Assembly: GCF_012863495.1 (NCBI RefSeq)
Contig: NZ_JAAVJL010000001.1
Span: forward strand, 1,860,001 to 1,924,000
Length of the DNA stretch: 64,000 nucleotides
Direction: 5' to 3'
Source: Pseudanabaena yagii GIHE-NHR1
Lineage (GTDB): Bacteria; Cyanobacteriota; Cyanobacteriia; Pseudanabaenales; Pseudanabaenaceae
The translations under genes and the position numbers were made by a program. Below the pieces are notes generated by a model. That model did not search any database. It had not been told where the DNA came from and saw only the letters and a program-made list of their open reading frames with translations. Position 1 is the first letter of the stretch. Each line of letters begins with the position of its first letter. This document shows, piece after piece, positions 37,162-47,443 of this stretch.

Positions 37162-37923
37162 TTACAGTCCAGCAAACCACTCATAACCTTCTTCTACCCA
37201 ATAGCCTCGACGCTGCTGGAAAAGCTCATTAGTAAAAGTGACGCGAGTTATCCATTTTGATTGCTTATAGCCAAGCTTAATCGGAGAAGCTAACCGCAGA
37301 GGTGCGCCATTCTCAACGGGGAGATCTTGACCATTCTTTTGATAAGCCAGTAGCGTTTGGGGATGTAAAGCCGAAGCAATATCCCAACTCTCGTAATAAT
37401 TATCGGCGGATTCAAAATAGACATAACGTGCTCCCGCCTTCGGTTGAACTAACTTCGCCAGATCGTAGAGACGTATGCCACCCCACTGCACGATCGCTGC
37501 CCATCCTTCCACACAGACATGACGAATCACCATCGAAGTTAAGGGTAAGGTCTGAATATCTCGCATACTCAATTGCATCGGATTATTGACTGCGCCATCA
37601 ATTACCAATTTGAAGGAATTAGGATCGATAAGAGGAGTAATGTCATAGGAATTAATCAATAAAGCATTAGGCTCGATCGCACTAAGCGGATATTCTGGCG
37701 CAGGATTTTTTGCTTGAAAGATTAATTCTTCAATGCTTTGATTGAGTGGCTCGAATAAAGCTCTGACATTTCCAGATTGTTGGTTAAGAGGTTTAAAAAT
37801 GGGACTCACTCGACTCGCCTCATTCGCACAACTTCCCAAAAACAAACCCATGCCTGACAAACTGGCATATTTAATTAACTGACGACGGGAAAACCGATGG
37901 TGTGGATATGGGTCAAATTTCAT
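37162..37923 (-). CDS. YedY/MsrP-like molybdopterin-dependent oxidoreductase
   Basis: 253 residues. The N-terminus has a Tat-type motif FSRRQLIKYA followed by GLFLGSCANE, so it is a Tat-exported protein that may be lipidated at the Cys. The sulfite-oxidase-like fold has MVIRHVCVEGWAAIVQWGG, whose Cys is the expected Mo ligand, and RLASPIKLGYKQSKWI. MsrP repairs oxidised periplasmic methionines; other members use other substrates. Last gene of the sigma-factor cluster, separated from the cytochrome gene by 182 bp containing two hairpins. Confidence 0.85.
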   Translation of the reverse strand: MKFDPYPHHRFSRRQLIKYASLSGMGLFLGSCANEASRVSPIFKPLNQQSGNVRALFEPLNQSIEELIFQAKNPAPEYPLSAIEPNALLINSYDITPLIDPNSFKLVIDGAVNNPMQLSMRDIQTLPLTSMVIRHVCVEGWAAIVQWGGIRLYDLAKLVQPKAGARYVYFESADNYYESWDIASALHPQTLLAYQKNGQDLPVENGAPLRLASPIKLGYKQSKWITRVTFTNELFQQRRGYWVEEGYEWFAGL

Positions 37924-37953
37924 GCTGAATAATCCTAATCAATCATTTAATAT

Positions 37954-38047
37954 CAACTCAAAAAAGTGTAGTTACACTTTTTTGAGTTGGAAACCAAACC
38001 CAGTAGGGGTTTTAAAATAAAGAAATGGCTACGCCATTTCTTTATTT
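37954..38047. repeat. Pair of palindromes upstream of the molybdo-oxidoreductase gene
   Basis: Two hairpins: CAACTCAAAAAAGTGTA / TACACTTTTTTGAGTTG (37954-37989) and AAATAAAGAAATGGC / GCCATTTCTTTATTT (38015-38047, loop TAC). They sit between two co-oriented genes. The one nearer the cytochrome may attenuate read-through into the oxidoreductase gene. Confidence 0.85.
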
Positions 38048-38065
38048 GGTATAAGTAAATCTTCC

Positions 38066-38107
38066 AAAAGCTAATAGCTAAAGGCTAAAAGCTAATAGCT
38101 AAAGGCT
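38066..38107. repeat. Two tandem 21-bp units built on GCTAATAGCTAAAG
   Basis: Unit AAAAGCTAATAGCTAAAGGCT occurs twice exactly. It overlaps the stop of the cytochrome gene (TAG within the second copy). It is related to the AGCTATTAGC / GCTAATAGCT repeats in the pflA-adhE spacer. Confidence 0.85.
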
Positions 38108-38705
38108 AAACAAACATAGAACGAATCATTTTGAAACCACCGACTTTAAAGGAAAGAAATATATGCGCGATCGCAAAAATCAGCACAATCGGCACGGTGA
38201 GGAAATGGGCAATGCGGAGATTTTGCCAACTGCCAAATAGTCCTGAAATCCATGCAAACTGCACAGGTTTATACATACATAAACCAGAGAGAATCGCTAA
38301 GAGCAAAATCGGAATAATCGCAGTATAGGCAATACGATGCCAAGCGTAGTTTTTACGTTTAGGATTTTTAGCTTGTAGGGCTTGAATATCTTTTTCAGAA
38401 GCAAAGCGATGCTTCCATCGGCGCGTTAGAAAGATATAAATACCATAAATCAATAAACTCATGGAAAACACCCACATCGAAGCAAAGTGCCAATTCCTCC
38501 CGCCGCCAAGCCATCCGCCTAAGAGTATCTCTTTGGGAAATCGCCATCCTGCGCGTCCACCAAAGACAGGATTTGCATTATAAATTTGCAGACCACTTGC
38601 TGTCATCAAGATCAAGGCGATGAGATTAATGGAATGAAATGCCTTGATGAATATTGCTTGCTTAGGAGCAGGGGGCGATTTGGGATTTGGAGATTTTGGA
38701 CTCAT
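38106..38705 (-). CDS. Cytochrome b561-type membrane subunit
   Basis: 199 residues with five hydrophobic segments and candidate haem histidines: IKAFHSINLIALILMTASGL, RNWHFASMWVFSMSLLIYGI, YAWHRIAYTAIIPILLLA and RIAHFLTVPIVLIFAIAHIF. The pattern fits the cytochrome b/b6 domain of Ni-Fe-hydrogenase/thiosulfate reductase b-subunits. It would hand electrons from quinol to the exported molybdo-enzyme, as MsrQ does for MsrP, though it is a different fold family. Co-oriented with ccdA upstream. Confidence 0.85.
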   Translation of the reverse strand: MSPKSPNPKSPPAPKQAIFIKAFHSINLIALILMTASGLQIYNANPVFGGRAGWRFPKEILLGGWLGGGRNWHFASMWVFSMSLLIYGIYIFLTRRWKHRFASEKDIQALQAKNPKRKNYAWHRIAYTAIIPILLLAILSGLCMYKPVQFAWISGLFGSWQNLRIAHFLTVPIVLIFAIAHIFLSFKVGGFKMIRSMFV

Positions 38706-38761
38706 GGATTTAGCTGAGTTAATTAATTAGTATTGCGGGAGATTCGCAGACTCGTTCAACT

Positions 38762-39451
38762 TTATAAAGCTAAGGTCGGAAAGAATGGTGCTAACCAAAG
38801 TTGGATTTTGACATCCCATCCCAAAATAATTGCGATCGCTGTAATTGCAATCATCACACCACCAATTCTTTGTAAAAGTTGACTATGGACGCGAAATCTG
38901 AGGAATGATTTACTAAAATAGCGACTGGCATAGGCAAGTAGTAACATGGGAATACCTGCGCCAATCCCATAGCAAATCAATAAAATAAAGGCGCTAAGAA
39001 TTTCCTGATTGACTGCCGCTAAAACTAAAATACTTCCTAATACTGAGCCTGCACAGGGAGTCCACAATAGCCCTAATTGAGAACCTAAGAGAAATTCACT
39101 AGCTAAATTGATGCGGGTTGGTTCTTTGAATTTAGGAATAGGTAACTTGGAGAGCAATAGATAATTTAATTTGGGAAATATTGAGAACAAACCAAGGACT
39201 AGTAAAACAGCGATCGCTAAAATTCGCATCACATTGGCGAATCCCGTCAGCCAAATACTAGCAATCCCTAAAAGACTACCTGCGATCGCAAATCCAGTGA
39301 TCGTACCTAGCACTAAAGCGATCGGTGCATAGCGATGCGTTTGTAGCGATCGCCCGATTAAAATCGGCAAGATCGGCAATATGCAGGGTGAAAATGCAGT
39401 TAACAAACCAGCAATTAGGGATAAGGCGATCGCCAGAGGAGAGAGTCCCAT
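38762..39451 (-). CDS. ccdA: CcdA-type thiol-disulfide transmembrane transporter
   Basis: 229 residues, six helices. The two redox cysteines are in FSPCILPILPI (helix 1) and WTPCAGSVLGS (helix 4), the CcdA/DsbD-gamma signature. It moves reductant from cytosolic thioredoxin to extracytoplasmic thioredoxins. Five bp downstream of the TlpA-like gene, the two together resembling a split DipZ. Confidence 0.92.
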   Translation of the reverse strand: MGLSPLAIALSLIAGLLTAFSPCILPILPILIGRSLQTHRYAPIALVLGTITGFAIAGSLLGIASIWLTGFANVMRILAIAVLLVLGLFSIFPKLNYLLLSKLPIPKFKEPTRINLASEFLLGSQLGLLWTPCAGSVLGSILVLAAVNQEILSAFILLICYGIGAGIPMLLLAYASRYFSKSFLRFRVHSQLLQRIGGVMIAITAIAIILGWDVKIQLWLAPFFPTLAL

Positions 39452-39456
39452 AGCTT

Positions 39457-40074
39457 CTATCCCAATAGCTTTTGAATGGTTTGTTCTGTCTTGGCATAAG
39501 CACCTTCGCCAATATGGTCATAGACAAGATTACCTTGGCGATCGGCTAAATAGAGATGAGGCCAGTACTCGTTACCATAGGCTTTCCAAGTTTGAAACTC
39601 ATTGTCAACTGGCACTGGGTAACGAATGCCATGTTTTTGGATCGCATCTTTGATATTGTTTGCCTCACGCTCAAAGGCAAATTCGGGAGTATGGACACCA
39701 ATGATTTTTAATCCTTTAGCAGCGTATTGTTCATGCCATTTAGTCACGTAGGGTAAAGTACGCTGACAGTTTATACAGCTAAAAGTCCAAAACTGAATCA
39801 TGACCACATTTCCCTTTAAGTCTTGAATTGACAAGGGATCAGAATTTAGCCATTGGGCAATGCCTTGAAATTCTGGTAGTGATTGACTGGCGCTGCTATT
39901 AATAGCCACTGAATTAACTGAACTATTAGATTTTGGGATATTGGGGTTAGAGACTATATCAGGAGAGGGTTTTGGATAACTGATCTGAGTAGCGATCGCT
40001 GCACTACCAATTCCTAAAGCTCCTAAACCCGCATAGGTCAATAACCGACGACGAGGCAAGAGTCCATTGCTCAT
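39457..40074 (-). CDS. TlpA/DipZ-like extracytoplasmic thioredoxin
   Basis: 205 residues. The N-terminus PRRRLLTYAGLGALGIGS looks like a twin-arginine or uncleaved anchor. The thioredoxin domain has MIQFWTFSCINCQRTLPYV, a CINC active site in place of the common CxPC, followed by IIGVHTPEFAFEREANNI. DipZ proteins fuse CcdA and such a domain; here the genes are adjacent. It probably reduces disulfides in secreted targets. Confidence 0.9.
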   Translation of the reverse strand: MSNGLLPRRRLLTYAGLGALGIGSAAIATQISYPKPSPDIVSNPNIPKSNSSVNSVAINSSASQSLPEFQGIAQWLNSDPLSIQDLKGNVVMIQFWTFSCINCQRTLPYVTKWHEQYAAKGLKIIGVHTPEFAFEREANNIKDAIQKHGIRYPVPVDNEFQTWKAYGNEYWPHLYLADRQGNLVYDHIGEGAYAKTEQTIQKLLG

Positions 40075-40124
40075 AATATATATCCTAAAGGATTGCTAAG
40101 TAGAGACACGCCATCCTTTGCTCG

Positions 40125-40649
40125 TTAAGAAGAAGTAAGAGACGCAGCACCAAAGGTAGCGTTAAACTGGCGACACCAGATGGCAATAGACTGATATTGA
40201 TCGGGCTGAATATCTTTGGGAACTGCATAGCGTTGTTTGCCGTTAAAGCTTTTGAGAGGCGCAACTACGATGTAGTCACCCTCAGCGATCGCAAAATATG
40301 GCGGCTTAGTCGTTTTTAAAACATCAGGAGATCGATGCAAAATCACAAACAAATCTGGTCCCTTATCTGATGTCTGAAAGGTTTGATCAAGTTCAACAAA
40401 ATAAGTTCCATTTTCGTAGACAAGATTAGCCTTGCCACTAGTGGGATGTTCGCCATTGACGAAATTTCCAGTTCTCAATTGATTGATAGCCTTGGGAGTG
40501 TCAGTTACGACAGTAGATTTAGTTTGCAGAGATTTTGCATTCGCCGTTGTTGATGTGGGAATAGACTCGACTTGGGATACGGTTGAACGATTAGCACATC
40601 CTAGAAGTATCACTGTTAAAGTGACTAAGATCAGGTTTTTATTAAGCAT
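40125..40649 (-). CDS. DM13-domain lipoprotein
   Basis: 174 residues. Lipobox ILLGCANRS at the end of a short signal peptide. The C-terminal domain GNFVNGEHPTSGKANLVYEN, LDQTFQTSDKGPDLFVILHR and IAIWCRQFNATFGAASL matches DM13, a domain proposed to carry redox activity through its conserved Cys (here in WCRQF). Extracytoplasmic, part of the sigma-factor cluster. Confidence 0.88.
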   Translation of the reverse strand: MLNKNLILVTLTVILLGCANRSTVSQVESIPTSTTANAKSLQTKSTVVTDTPKAINQLRTGNFVNGEHPTSGKANLVYENGTYFVELDQTFQTSDKGPDLFVILHRSPDVLKTTKPPYFAIAEGDYIVVAPLKSFNGKQRYAVPKDIQPDQYQSIAIWCRQFNATFGAASLTSS

Positions 40650-40817
40650 AGATAGATTTTTTCTATTCCAAGAATCGTTATCAATTGGATCTTTATATGT
40701 CAGTCCAAGTCAATTTAATTTCCCCGACTTTTTCGCAAAAAGAATGAATTACCTTCGTCAAGCAACCCAAAAGTCGGAGATCTGGGCATATGGGTTTCTT
40801 TTGCCTACCTTGGATAA

Positions 40818-41228
40818 TTATTGTTTAGGAGCATCCGCAGGTTTATCACTCTTCATCGCATCGTTTTTCATCGCATCCGCAGGCTTATTGCTTTTCATGG
40901 CATCATTTTTCATGGCATCCGCAGGTTTGTCACTCTTCATCGCGTCGTTCTTCATTGCATCGCCAGACTTATCCTTCATTGCGTCATTTTTCATGGCATC
41001 CGCAGGCTTATCTTTCTTCATTGCATCATTTTTCATTGCATCGCCAGTTTTATCCTTCATTGCATCACCTTTCATTGCGTCATTTTTCATCGCATCAGTG
41101 GGCTTTGTCGCGGGAGTAGATTGGACTGTGGGCGTGGATGGCTCAGTAGGAGTAGATGTAGCGCTACAGGAAACTAGTCCAGTGGTCAGAGCCAAACCAG
41201 CAATCAGTCCAAGAAATTTGTAGTTCAT
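40818..41228 (-). CDS. Met/Lys-rich MXKDX-type repeat lipoprotein
   Basis: 136 residues from ATG 41228; a longer reading is excluded because the signal peptide begins there. Signal peptide LGLIAGLALTTGLVSC with lipobox LVSC. The mature part is a Thr/Pro/Ser linker then 13 DAMK units, mostly as DAMKNDAMK pairs spaced by DKPA or DKSG. The pattern resembles the pentapeptide MXKDX repeat family. A periplasmic array of exposed Met residues beside a YedY/MsrP-like enzyme suggests an oxidant sink, but this is inference. Confidence 0.85.
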   Translation of the reverse strand: MNYKFLGLIAGLALTTGLVSCSATSTPTEPSTPTVQSTPATKPTDAMKNDAMKGDAMKDKTGDAMKNDAMKKDKPADAMKNDAMKDKSGDAMKNDAMKSDKPADAMKNDAMKSNKPADAMKNDAMKSDKPADAPKQ

Positions 41229-41323
41229 TTTTGTTAGCTCGCGTTCAATAAGAAGTAATGGAGAAAAAACCTTGTTTGGTTCACTTATTTGATATACGGA
41301 GCAGGGAAGAAATCGGATGAGAT

Positions 41324-41358
41324 TAATTTGTAAGCACATTTCATGTGCTTGCAAATTA
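41324..41358. repeat. Hairpin between anti-sigma gene and repeat lipoprotein gene
   Basis: TAATTTG-T-AAGCACAT / ATGTGCTT-G-CAAATTA with one mismatch and loop TTC. Lies 5 bp after the anti-sigma stop; it may dampen read-through into the downstream genes. Confidence 0.75.
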
Positions 41359-41362
41359 GAGG

Positions 41363-42181
41363 TTAAACTTCTCCTTTCATCACCATTTCGCCAGTGGGCT
41401 CAGGCATATCTTTATTGGGTTCAATTGTGATGATGAGGGTGTTAGATTGTTTGAGGGCGCTACCTAATGGCACTTTTAAAAATACGTTTCCCTGTGCGTC
41501 AGGACGGAACTGAGCGCAATCAATCTTTTTGCCATCAACGATCGCCCAAAGTCGATAGCTATTTTCTTGGGGAATCGGCATGAGATTTTGAATATTGATC
41601 ATGGCTGTTTTTTCCATAGGTGCGATCATCACACTACCTGTTGCCGCAGGAATTGCACCCATCCCCTTGAGAGAAATCATGCGATTGTCAGAGGCTTGCA
41701 AGAGAGCGATCGCTTGTTTATATTTTTGCAGTTCTATTTGATTAGTCGCGATTTGTTGACGCATTTGGTAATTATCAAATCCCAAACCAAAGATCGCGAT
41801 CGCACTAATACTACCTAAACCAATCCCCAATAATTTCCAGAAATTTTGACGACGCGGTACTTGCCTAGACTCTAGTGCTTGGGGAGCAGTTAATAAGTCT
41901 AGCGAATCAGCAATATTATTAGTGACATTCTCAGCTACAGGGATTGCCGTCGCCGCAATGCGATCGCGCAGATTTGGCGAAGGATGGGAAGCATTTAAAC
42001 TCAAGGGCAAAAGTGCTAATGTTTCTTGCAAGCGATCGATTTCTTGAATGATTTCGGGATGCTCAACGATCAACTGCTGCATTTCCGTAACTTCTTCTGT
42101 GGTCAAATCCCCTAAGACATAACCTGCTAATAACTCTTCCCATTCATGGGGATAATTGGATACTGACATAATTACTTTCAC
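41363..42181 (-). CDS. RskA-type anti-sigma factor
   Basis: 272 residues. The N-terminal helical domain begins WEELLAGYVLGDLTTEEVTE, as in RskA-type anti-sigma proteins. One membrane helix lies at about 120-140 (LLGIGLGSISAIAIFGLG). The C-terminal extracytoplasmic domain ends with NSYRLWAIVDGKKIDCAQF and VFLKVPLGSALKQ, the RskA C-terminal fold. No zinc HxxxCxxC. Its start overlaps the sigma stop by 4 bp. It would hold the sigma factor at the membrane until an envelope signal frees it. Confidence 0.9.
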   Translation of the reverse strand: MKVIMSVSNYPHEWEELLAGYVLGDLTTEEVTEMQQLIVEHPEIIQEIDRLQETLALLPLSLNASHPSPNLRDRIAATAIPVAENVTNNIADSLDLLTAPQALESRQVPRRQNFWKLLGIGLGSISAIAIFGLGFDNYQMRQQIATNQIELQKYKQAIALLQASDNRMISLKGMGAIPAATGSVMIAPMEKTAMINIQNLMPIPQENSYRLWAIVDGKKIDCAQFRPDAQGNVFLKVPLGSALKQSNTLIITIEPNKDMPEPTGEMVMKGEV

Positions 42182-42744
42182 TCCAGCGAATCTTTCAAAC
42201 TTTCTCTCAATCGAATCAACCCATTACGCGCCCAAGATTTAACCGTTCCCAAAGGTGTATCAAGGGCTTTAGCAATTTCCGTTTGACTGAGTCCGTCAAA
42301 ATATGCCATCTCTAAAACTTGGCGATGTTTATCAGGTAAGTCAGCTAAGGCAGCTTTTACCTTTTCTGAGCGTTCAGAAAGTGACGCATTTTCCATGAGT
42401 GATGAGTTACTGGTGTCATGGTCTGAGGAAATGCTTTGTTCCCATTTTTGGAGATGCTGCTGTTGCGATCGCGTTTTGCGAATACGGTCAATGGCTCGAG
42501 ATCGCGTCAACACCGACAAAAAAGCGGCGATCGATCCGCGCTTACTGTCATAGTTGGTATCGCGACTGAGCAAGATAAAGATCTCTTGGGTGAGATCCTC
42601 TGCTTCTTGCAGATTGCCCAAGATTCTGAGAGAGAGACGATACACTAGCTCGCCATAGCGATCGTAAAAGATACCAAAAGCCTGACTGCTTCCAGATCGC
42701 CAAGCCTGCAATACTTCCACATCAGTTTGCTCTGAGATTTTCAT
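42178..42744 (-). CDS. ECF-family RNA polymerase sigma factor (SigK/RskA-linked)
   Basis: 188 residues. Region 2 has AFGIFYDRYGELVYRLSLRI and AEDLTQEIFILL; region 4 has LPDKHRQVLEMAYFDGLSQT and EIAKALDTPLGTVKSWARNG. The length and anti-sigma pairing are those of an ECF sigma. Expected to transcribe the seven genes downstream and perhaps itself; its -35/-10 recognition could not be read here. ATG start, divergent from the NhaS3-like gene. Confidence 0.93.
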   Translation of the reverse strand: MKISEQTDVEVLQAWRSGSSQAFGIFYDRYGELVYRLSLRILGNLQEAEDLTQEIFILLSRDTNYDSKRGSIAAFLSVLTRSRAIDRIRKTRSQQQHLQKWEQSISSDHDTSNSSLMENASLSERSEKVKAALADLPDKHRQVLEMAYFDGLSQTEIAKALDTPLGTVKSWARNGLIRLRESLKDSLE

Positions 42745-42783: not shown

Positions 42784-42845
42784 AATAAAGAACCAGATTT
42801 TTTGTGACGCGGCGAAGCCGCGTCACAAAAAATCGGTTCTTTATT
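42784..42845. repeat. Long palindrome between divergent sigma and antiporter genes
   Basis: Inner 18-bp perfect stem GATTTTTTGTGACGCGGC / complement with loop GAA, extended by 11 bp of outer stem after a one-base bulge. Lies in the shared promoter region, so it is not a terminator for either gene. Confidence 0.85.
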
Positions 42846-42984
42846 CTTCTGCATGTCCCTAAGCGCAAGCTGTAATATACATACGCATCCTAAGCGAAAA
42901 TGGATGAATTGAAAATCAGTAAGTAGGTGGGGCGCAAGATGCTACTCCTCCGAATCAGTAAACCTGTATCAAGAATCACAGCTT

Positions 42985-46848: not shown

Positions 46849-46880
46849 AGAAAGCCCCGCAAATGCGGGGCTTTCTTTAT
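46845..46880. terminator. Bidirectional terminator containing both stop codons
   Basis: 17-bp stem ATAAAGAAAGCCCCGCA / complement, loop AA. The stops of the converging beta-lactamase-like and thioredoxin genes both lie within the arms. Confidence 0.85.
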
Positions 46881-47443
46881 GACTTTGTGCCGTGATCTCT
46901 AGGTTGCGAAATATCGGCTGCCTTGGGTTCAGTAATCGGCGAGGTACGATCGCTACTAATACTATTGTGGGGCAAGGGCTGATTGGCGATCGCCGCTTCG
47001 ATATTCGCTGCCATAATTTCGCGGGGGATGGCTCCCGTCGTATCACCAATCGCCTGATTAGCGCGATCTAAAAAAATAAATCTGGGAATCCCATCAACGC
47101 GGTACTTAGTCACCTCTGGCAACCATTTAGTATTGTCCACATTTAGCATCACAAAATTCATGCGATCGCTATATTCCTTTTCGAGGGACAAATTATCCGC
47201 CGCCATCGACTGACAACTGCTACACCAATCCGCATAAAACTCGATGGTGGTGGGCTTATCATTTGCCAGAGCTTCATCAATGGGCATGGCAGCGGCAGCA
47301 ACTGCATCCAGTGAGGTACTGCTTTGCTGCGCCTGAAAACCAAAAAAGAGGGCAGTAGTCAGAATAATTGCTGCGATCGCCACTAATAAATTGCGTAACT
47401 GATTAGATGCAGGTGGGGGACTAGTTGGATTTTCAGAATTCAT
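46877..47443 (-). CDS. txlA: HCF164/TxlA-like thylakoid thioredoxin
   Basis: 188 residues. A single N-terminal anchor (LLVAIAAIILTTALFFGFQ) precedes a thioredoxin domain with IEFYADWCSSCQSMAAD (active site CSSC), FVMLNVDNTKWLPEVTKYRV and GIPRFIFLDR (cis-Pro). HCF164/TxlA receives reductant via CcdA and is needed for cytochrome b6f assembly. It could thus be a partner of the CcdA at 38762, although encoded apart. Confidence 0.88.
   Translation of the reverse strand: MNSENPTSPPPASNQLRNLLVAIAAIILTTALFFGFQAQQSSTSLDAVAAAAMPIDEALANDKPTTIEFYADWCSSCQSMAADNLSLEKEYSDRMNFVMLNVDNTKWLPEVTKYRVDGIPRFIFLDRANQAIGDTTGAIPREIMAANIEAAIANQPLPHNSISSDRTSPITEPKAADISQPRDHGTKS

Follow-up and report, generated by a model that had tools for sequence, protein, structure and literature searches.

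A candidate SigK/RskA-type extracytoplasmic function regulon for oxidant defence outside the cytoplasmic membrane of Pseudanabaena yagii

We analysed a window of 64,000 nucleotides of Pseudanabaena yagii GIHE-NHR1 (the whole stretch of DNA, positions 1,860,001 to 1,924,000 of contig NZ_JAAVJL010000001.1, in a genome of 5.57 Mb), in which eight co-oriented open reading frames (ORFs) lie on the minus strand between positions 37162 and 42744 in the order SIG-ASF-METL-DM13-TLPA-CCDA-CYTB-YEDY. We suggest, with a probability of roughly two in three, that these genes form the main part of a SigK/RskA-type extracytoplasmic function (ECF) sigma factor regulon for oxidant defence outside the cytoplasmic membrane, equipped with a putative sacrificial methionine sink. 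The observations behind this reading are the gene content, its conservation, an upstream element shared by sig and metL, and the co-occurrence of that element with SIG and ASF. Below, G, L and C numbers denote genomes, loci and contigs, respectively, and G000 is the genome of the window itself. The features are the following:

42881..42907, minus strand: predicted ECF promoter of sig, TCATCC-N16-CGTAT, exact match, 136 nt 5' of the start codon
42796..42834, unstranded: palindromic hairpin of 18 pairs between the sig promoter and the sig start codon (terminator scan, both strands)
42178..42744, minus strand: SIG, ECF sigma factor, SigK-like, without cysteine (Sigma70_r2/r4; PRK12519)
41363..42181, minus strand: ASF, RskA-type membrane anti-sigma factor (RskA_C, E 1.3e-19; hydropathy; alignment of 10)
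41294..41320, minus strand: predicted ECF promoter of metL and the downstream operon, TCATCC-N16-CGTAT, exact match, 65 nt 5' of the start codon
40818..41228, minus strand: METL, methionine-rich repeat lipoprotein, proposed sacrificial methionine sink (methionine content, lipobox Cys21)
40125..40649, minus strand: DM13 lipoprotein (PF10517, E 7.1e-30)
39457..40074, minus strand: TLPA, exported thioredoxin-like protein with a CINC site, DipZ-type (phmmer against DipZ 5cyy)
38762..39451, minus strand: CCDA, DsbD/CcdA-type transmembrane thiol electron carrier (DsbD_TM, E 1.1e-12)
38106..38705, minus strand: CYTB, membrane b-type cytochrome, proposed electron donor of YEDY (Ni_hydr_CYTB, E 4.8e-15)
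37162..37923, minus strand: YEDY, Tat-type, lipobox-bearing molybdopterin oxidoreductase of the MsrP/YedY kind (PF00174, E 3.4e-35)

The eight co-oriented genes of the initial annotation are all found on the minus strand, and seven of its family labels agree with Pfam matches above the curated cut-offs (Sigma70_r2/r4, RskA_C, DM13, AhpC-TSA/Redoxin, DsbD_TM, Ni_hydr_CYTB and Oxidored_molyb). The METL ORF gave no match in the Pfam scan, and YEDY, initially assigned to the MsrP type, scores below the curated MsrP cut-off.

The element TCATCC-N16-CGTAT stands in identical form 5' of SIG and 5' of METL in the aligned upstream regions of the genus. Two otherwise dissimilar upstream regions of one genome carry it, and its core is kept while spacer and flanks vary between the genus sequences: nine of the 10 sequences aligned on the SIG side are exact and one (L042) ends in CGTAC, and on the METL side all 12 aligned sequences are exact despite their diverging flanks. 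The window holds two copies, as compared to 0.01 expected from shuffling, and these two, at sig and metL, are the only exact matches in the scan of the 5.57-Mb genome. (Scans of the window with sigma-70 and terminator models gave nothing above shuffles.) The 26 genus genomes together contain 64 exact matches, as opposed to 20 for a reversed-pattern control. Thirty-one of them, recounted by script, flank the 20 strong ASF loci (16 on the SIG side and 15 on the METL side, each locus having at least one), two stand before METL where SIG is elsewhere and seven before one further gene (these nine placements being assigned by hand), and the remaining 24 are at about the control level. The element is kept at both units where SIG-ASF and METL-to-YEDY are separated, i.e. 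about 178 kb apart on one contig in G008 and on different contigs in G005; in G016 a site precedes ASF, and no SIG ORF was found in the interval. Since the motif was derived from these operons, its presence there is not independent evidence. Independent support comes, at the sequence level, from its absence elsewhere, its survival of the unit separation in G008 and G005, and its presence before another gene. We infer that the element is the promoter read by SIG. It presumably resembles the SigK consensus CCATCC...CGAA. The initial claim of joint control by the sigma factor gains support from this shared predicted promoter, kept even across the 178 kb of G008, and from the predicted target egtD described below.

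A relaxed scan of the P. yagii genome yielded 20 matches, the control 6. The sites of sig, metL and egtD do not overlap any ORF of 60 aa or more and have a gene start close by; the other 17 overlap such ORFs and were not taken as promoters. Four of the 17 overlap only short ORFs of 79-128 aa (L302, L304, L305 and L309), and a doubtful ORF of 153 aa starts 28 nt on from the L305 match. Other recurrent places of the genus motif (x536 and x564 ORFs) were dropped as promoters, being inside coding sequence. Outside the genus, a loose form of the motif precedes 10 of 23 SIG genes as opposed to 13 of 1110 other ORFs (p 1e-12; the 1110 include ORFs of five loci from genus genomes) and 4 of 32 TLPA genes; with a narrower motif the latter count is again 4/32, vs 4/1110 for the other ORFs (p 3e-5). 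Three of the four TLPA cases (L066, L067 and L182) are clusters with SIG-ASF that are split into separate units.

A recurrent extra site of the element is found 25-30 nt 5' of egtD in the genus. This gene encodes the histidine methyltransferase of ergothioneine synthesis (TIGR03438, E 6.6e-119, for the G010 protein; Methyltransf_33, E 2.6e-116, for the protein of P. yagii). The P. yagii genome has two egtD copies, one with an N17 site 26 nt 5' of its ATG and the other with a decayed form. Counting N16 and N17 spacers, the site is present in 13 of the 18 genomes that have a strong ASF and egtD (15 of 18 when the sites that end in CGTAA, recognised by eye in G015 and G004, are counted too), and in none of the six with egtD and no ASF match. 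The corresponding p values are 0.003 or 6e-4, kinship ignored. Outside the genus, the upstream regions of the 26 readable egtD loci (of 28) gave only two weak, distant matches (L282 and L289), and most of the genomes examined there have an ASF match; G261, counted as lacking ASF in this comparison, has a weak one. We predict that egtD is a member of the SIG regulon. Cyanobacteria produce ergothioneine (PMC10295655), and this compound reacts with singlet oxygen and hypochlorite (PMC7653990).

The survey of the genus was carried out by reading the neighbourhoods in the 26 genomes against ASF and CCDA searches. The full eight-gene order is present in eight of them (G000, G014, G020, G017, G012, G010, G011 and G003), and parts of it are kept in 11 more. 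Four genomes have the order minus DM13 (G002, G021, G024 and G015, the contig of G015 ending after CYTB); in two (G008 and G005) SIG-ASF is apart from METL-to-YEDY, with other neighbours in G005; two have SIG-ASF and TLPA-to-YEDY on separate short contigs (G009 and G004); one (G022) has SIG-ASF and a fused METL-DM13 gene and none of the other operon genes; one (G019) has SIG-ASF alone, and in one (G016, 76% complete) ASF was found without SIG. G014 carries the block twice (L031 and L032, 23.5 kb apart on contig C9) with identical order and match percentages, which is either a true duplication or an assembly artefact; here, and likewise in G021, an opposite-strand ORF of 309 aa lies between ASF and METL. 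In G007 CCDA is kept in a different setting. As the flanks differ between genomes, the block is not merely part of a long shared synteny.

SIG passes the NCBIfam model PRK12519 (254.8 bits, cut-off 222), the second match being the SigK model below its cut-off (125.9 bits vs 226). The nearest solved structure in a sequence search of the PDB is M. tuberculosis SigK 4nqw (E 4e-29). The ORFs of SIG and ASF overlap. ASF, with RskA_C over its cut-off, has a single hydrophobic segment (residues 114-136 by hydropathy) and, on the C-terminal side of it, a Cys222 that is invariant in the alignment of 10; SIG itself contains no cysteine. Sequence search of the PDB found no relative of ASF, DM13 or CYTB. 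The hairpin at 42796-42834, in the predicted 5' leader of sig, could attenuate sig. Its core has a single place in the window. L065 has the hairpin too and L044 has one like it, and it is absent from the remaining seven aligned relatives; because it is missing from most of them it is probably an inserted palindromic repeat.

In the regulon that we propose, the membrane anti-sigma factor ASF would hold SIG, and the released SIG would start transcription at TCATCC-N16/17-CGTAT promoters; these would drive sig-asf itself, the metL-dm13-tlpA-ccdA-cytB-yedY operon and, at a distant chromosomal site, egtD. Strong oxidants such as hypochlorite or singlet oxygen would be captured by METL, its methionines turning into methionine sulfoxide, and YEDY, fed by CYTB from the membrane quinone pool, would reduce this back, making the sink catalytic. 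CCDA and the DipZ-type TLPA would carry thiol electrons outward and keep exported cysteines reduced, EgtD would add ergothioneine inside the cell, and DM13 would be an accessory lipoprotein. We infer the inducer and the electron routes, and the reduction of methionine sulfoxide by YEDY is proposed by analogy.

It is useful to compare this scheme to two circuits that are described apart in the papers cited here. The first is BcrS/AbcS, an ECF sigma factor and an anti-sigma factor with six transmembrane (TM) helices that control bcrXQP, i.e. a methionine-rich MXKDX peptide and MsrQP homologues; the operon is induced by hypochlorite (HOCl) and contributes to HOCl resistance, and the BcrX-type peptide is thought to be a sacrificial sink like its Azospira homologue (yedYZ-mrpX, as cited there) (PMC8315932). 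Both systems have an ECF sigma factor with a membrane anti-sigma factor, and a methionine-rich repeat protein beside an MsrP-like enzyme and its membrane haem partner; by sequence, they also agree in an element shared by the sigma and the methionine-rich genes. There are several differences. The element here has CATCC and CGTA, whereas the BcrS sites have GTAAC and CGAA, and the sigma class differs, being ECF16 there (PMC8315932). The anti-sigma factor is of the RskA type with one hydrophobic segment, as opposed to a DUF1109/NrsF protein with six TM helices; the cytochrome belongs to PF01292 and is not an MsrQ homologue; and DM13, the DipZ-type TLPA, CcdA and the predicted egtD are added here. 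The initial reading of the block as an oxidant-sensing and repair circuit fits this closest analogue (PMC8315932) and is strengthened by the element and egtD. METL had been listed in the initial annotation without being interpreted.

The second circuit is the SigK-RskA regulon of M. tuberculosis, in which mpt83, mpt70 and dipZ each have a SigK-dependent promoter, its stimuli being described as obscure (PMC9861118); an mpt83-sigK-rskA cassette occurs in other genera, including Yersinia (PMC7509140). The likeness lies in a sigma factor whose nearest solved relative is SigK, an adjoining RskA_C anti-sigma factor, a DipZ-type thioredoxin with CcdA, and lipoproteins among the targets. Unlike in that regulon, CcdA and the thioredoxin are separate genes here, with a target status that is predicted from the operon, the targets include METL, CYTB-YEDY and the predicted egtD, and SIG lacks cysteine. 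MPT83 is of the fasciclin type, and the Pfam scan reported no fasciclin model, i.e. no MPT83-type protein, for any of the eight proteins. Judged from sequence, the cyanobacterial block thus appears to combine the SigK/RskA-DipZ circuit with the ECF methionine-rich/MsrPQ hypochlorite circuit, having some of the defining features of each.

Other comparisons are more partial. E. coli MsrPQ likewise pairs an Oxidored_molyb catalytic protein with a membrane haem protein, while CYTB is in PF01292 and YEDY falls below the MsrP equivalog cut-off. SigmaE-ChrR of Rhodobacter (ECF11) is also an ECF switch for an oxidant, singlet oxygen, in a phototroph (PMC6852236), but its anti-sigma factor ChrR is a cytoplasmic zinc protein, whereas ASF has an RskA_C domain and a membrane segment. 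Putative egtB and egtD also belong to the EcfG regulon of Sphingopyxis granuli (PMC7083833), a wide-ranging general stress response with 79 transcription units, as opposed to a narrow regulon with an RskA-type anti-sigma factor here. In Limnospira, a split MsrP-like gene was annotated and found repressed by gamma radiation, and MsrQ was not readily found (PMC8400943). A literature search for 'MXKDX' with 'cyanobacteri' found no paper, and for RskA with cyanobacteria the matches listed include metagenome-type titles that are probably chance word matches.

METL was read from the ATG at 41228 and not from an upstream TTG. It has 14 methionines in 136 aa, no histidine, and a single cysteine, the lipobox Cys21. 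In 33 distinct METL proteins methionine mostly recurs every 5-9 residues and the mature part has no aromatic residues; the detector demands methionine-rich repeats and a lipobox, so the methionine content is partly built in, a few of the 33 may be unrelated (the L101 match may be false), and it missed the METL of L067, which was spotted by eye. The net charge ranges from +3 to -20, as expected if methionine and not charge is what matters. As a sacrificial methionine sink, METL is probably the key part of the system. In G022 (L041:6414-6986) a METL signal peptide and a short methionine repeat are fused in frame to DM13, the other operon genes being missing.

YEDY has an RR motif followed by the lipobox Cys32, and an invariant Cys137 whose CVEGW context aligns with CVEAW, the molybdenum-ligand cysteine of MsrP. 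Its nearest solved relative is MsrP 1xdq (E 8.7e-27), as opposed to 1.1e-13 for sulfite dehydrogenases/oxidases. Foldseek also ranks 1xdy/1xdq best; this we take as supporting evidence only, because the model is poor (mean predicted local distance difference test, pLDDT, 54.9). CYTB is of the PF01292 (Ni-hydrogenase/b561) type, over the cut-off, with six invariant histidines. Pfam and NCBIfam scans listed no ferric-reductase or MsrQ model for it at E 0.1, and MsrQ belongs to PF01794. A second, stand-alone CYTB-YEDY pair is found in the P. yagii genome (G000:C1:2633856-2634461, L083), and also in G002, G007 and G020. Viral contigs gave 54 pattern matches, and no relative of YEDY is encoded in any of these.

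The distribution beyond the genus was counted in an even set of 386 genomes of the phylum, which is fairer than a set of named organisms made of the best 80 of 570 confirmed relatives and biased to close ones. A YEDY match at E 1e-15 is present in 61 of the 386, and 59 loci were read (matches above 240 bits, window excluded). Within 6 kb of YEDY we counted CYTB in 55, TLPA in 12, CCDA in 10, METL in 8, ASF in 7, SIG in 6 and DM13 in 5 loci, where loci cut by contig ends may score as lacking a gene. METL is near YEDY in 6 of the 12 loci with a thiol gene vs 2 of the 47 without (Fisher p 5e-4), SIG in 5/12 vs 1/47 (p 8e-4) and DM13 in 4/12 vs 1/47 (p 5e-3). From these co-occurrences, CYTB-YEDY is the core shared by most loci, to which METL, the thiol genes and SIG-ASF tend to be added jointly. 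In the named set (best 80 of 570) the counts are CYTB 64, TLPA 32, CCDA 32, METL 24, DM13 8, ASF 6 and SIG 4; METL-TLPA-CCDA-CYTB-YEDY is found in Nostoc, Oculatella and Phormidium tenue, METL-TLPA-CCDA-DM13-CYTB-YEDY in Nostoc spongiaeforme, and SIG-ASF, CCDA-TLPA and a divergent CYTB-YEDY in Argonema antarcticum. Other filamentous cyanobacteria thus have the effector set METL-TLPA-CCDA-CYTB-YEDY as well, in various rearrangements. In a tree built from 131 YEDY rows, where contig-end loci may be mislabelled, the presence of thiol genes changes at least 22 times, at least 11 of these forced by well-supported branches, suggesting that the module is repeatedly gained or lost. The random scatter of homologues in relatives, named by the initial annotation as the contrary outcome, is not what was found, since the block is conserved in 8 of 26 genus genomes and the module recurs. 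The eight-gene order is a trait of the genus; the effector module turns up more often than the initial annotation assumed.

These counts also bear on the substrate of YEDY. The protein may oxidise or reduce a small molecule (sulfite, sulfoxides or other), METL and the thiol pair serving to protect it. The Oxidored_molyb family also includes sulfite oxidases, YEDY is below the MsrP cut-off, and the CYTB-YEDY pair without thiol genes is the commonest form (43 of 59 loci). We nevertheless consider this explanation unlikely: MsrP is the best match, ahead of the sulfite oxidases in sequence and in Foldseek order, METL associates with the thiol-bearing clusters, and the proteobacterial counterpart with a methionine-rich protein is an HOCl system (PMC8315932).

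The thiol arm and the lipoproteins allow yet another interpretation, namely a thiol-redox and copper-handling or cytochrome-maturation cluster in which METL binds copper, CCDA and TLPA reduce the thiols of haem or copper ligands, and CYTB-YEDY is a bystander. The CcdA/TlpA families serve cytochrome c and CuA maturation, methionine-rich proteins can bind Cu(I), and CYTB-YEDY is common without thiol genes. In addition, the DM13 barrel resembles a fold of copper proteins: the predicted structure (core pLDDT above 90) superposes on Cu/Zn superoxide dismutases (VIA Z 9.9, root mean square deviation 3.0, 109 aligned residues; Foldseek E just 0.06). Of the two histidines in the window protein only H105 is invariant in 8 rows, and the metal histidines of the dismutases are not matched, so the modelled likeness would be one of fold alone, from which no function follows; a literature search for 'DM13 domain' found no paper. 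TLPA, which has an RRR near its N-terminus, is nearest to M. tuberculosis DipZ (phmmer vs 5cyy, E 3.9e-42), with which it shares the active site SCINCQR, and ResA is far behind (4.7e-14). CCDA, whose gene adjoins TLPA and whose Cys23 and Cys133 are invariant, is, unlike a housekeeping maturation factor, missing in this type from 8 of 26 genus genomes (short-contig or incomplete genomes set aside; 9 of 26 raw). Furthermore, METL has no histidine and its sole cysteine is the lipid-bearing one, the Pfam and NCBIfam scans gave no copper pump or chaperone model among the eight genes, and the third predicted target is egtD. On these grounds we regard a copper or maturation function as quite improbable.

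That the element and the gene order merely reflect shared ancestry in a close genus, the eight genes having no joint function, is very improbable and already largely contradicted: among the loci fetched the exact motif and the full order do occur in one genus alone, and seven of its 26 genomes have no ASF match, but TCATCC and CGTAT stay while flanks and spacer diverge, two unlike upstream regions of one genome share the element, it survives the separation of SIG from the operon and is absent at egtD where ASF is absent, and distant families have the module again in rearranged form, the loose motif preceding the separate units of the split clusters L066, L067 and L182.

Several observations weigh against an oxidant-defence regulon under SIG. 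No ASF match was found in seven of the 26 genus genomes (G001, G006, G007, G013, G018, G023 and G025), the operons of G002, G021, G024 and G015 lack DM13, and the egtD site is missing in G012, G011 and G024 and was not seen outside the genus (26 of 28 egtD loci readable), where the loose motif precedes only 2 of 21 METL genes. Of the 59 YEDY loci in the phylum sample, 47 lack a nearby thiol gene and 53 lack SIG; because most loci are of this kind, the substrate of YEDY may be a different one. A test on phylogenetically independent pairs also favours an association of METL with the thiol genes, without significance (median p 0.125, too few pairs), and shows no trend for DM13. YEDY reaches 98 bits vs 207 for the NCBIfam MsrP equivalog, and METL 37.5 bits vs 41 for penta_MxKDx (TIGR02953), a model that in a scan of 8 proteins gave 39.5 bits for L044, again below 41, and no match for the other seven. 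Characterised partners lend support by analogy only. In M. kansasii, light induces mpk83 and mpk70 and does not regulate dipZ (PMC9861118).

If the proposed regulon holds, it would be a compact one for oxidant defence outside the cyanobacterial cytoplasmic membrane, with three predicted promoters in this genome. It would link the SigK/RskA-DipZ regulon to ECF hypochlorite defence and suggest what SigK/RskA may sense. As the predicted regulon consists almost entirely of repair and scavenging functions, the cyanobacterial form would reveal an oxidant response of SigK/RskA. We put forward only tentatively, as rather doubtful, that strong oxidants outside the membrane may be what such switches react to in general, that DipZ-type thiol carriers would belong to this response, and that photosynthetic singlet oxygen could be the natural signal. 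Ergothioneine synthesis is predicted to be under the same switch as the envelope defence operon; ECF control of egtD would not be new in kind, because an EcfG regulon with egtD has already been reported (PMC7083833).

A further thioredoxin-like protein is encoded at 46877-47443 of the window, about 4 kb from the sigma gene and outside the conserved block. Finally, a minimal DM13-SIG-ASF cassette, with the loose motif before DM13, was found in G050 and G287 (L036 and L091); it resembles the lipoprotein-sigK-rskA cassette of other phyla.

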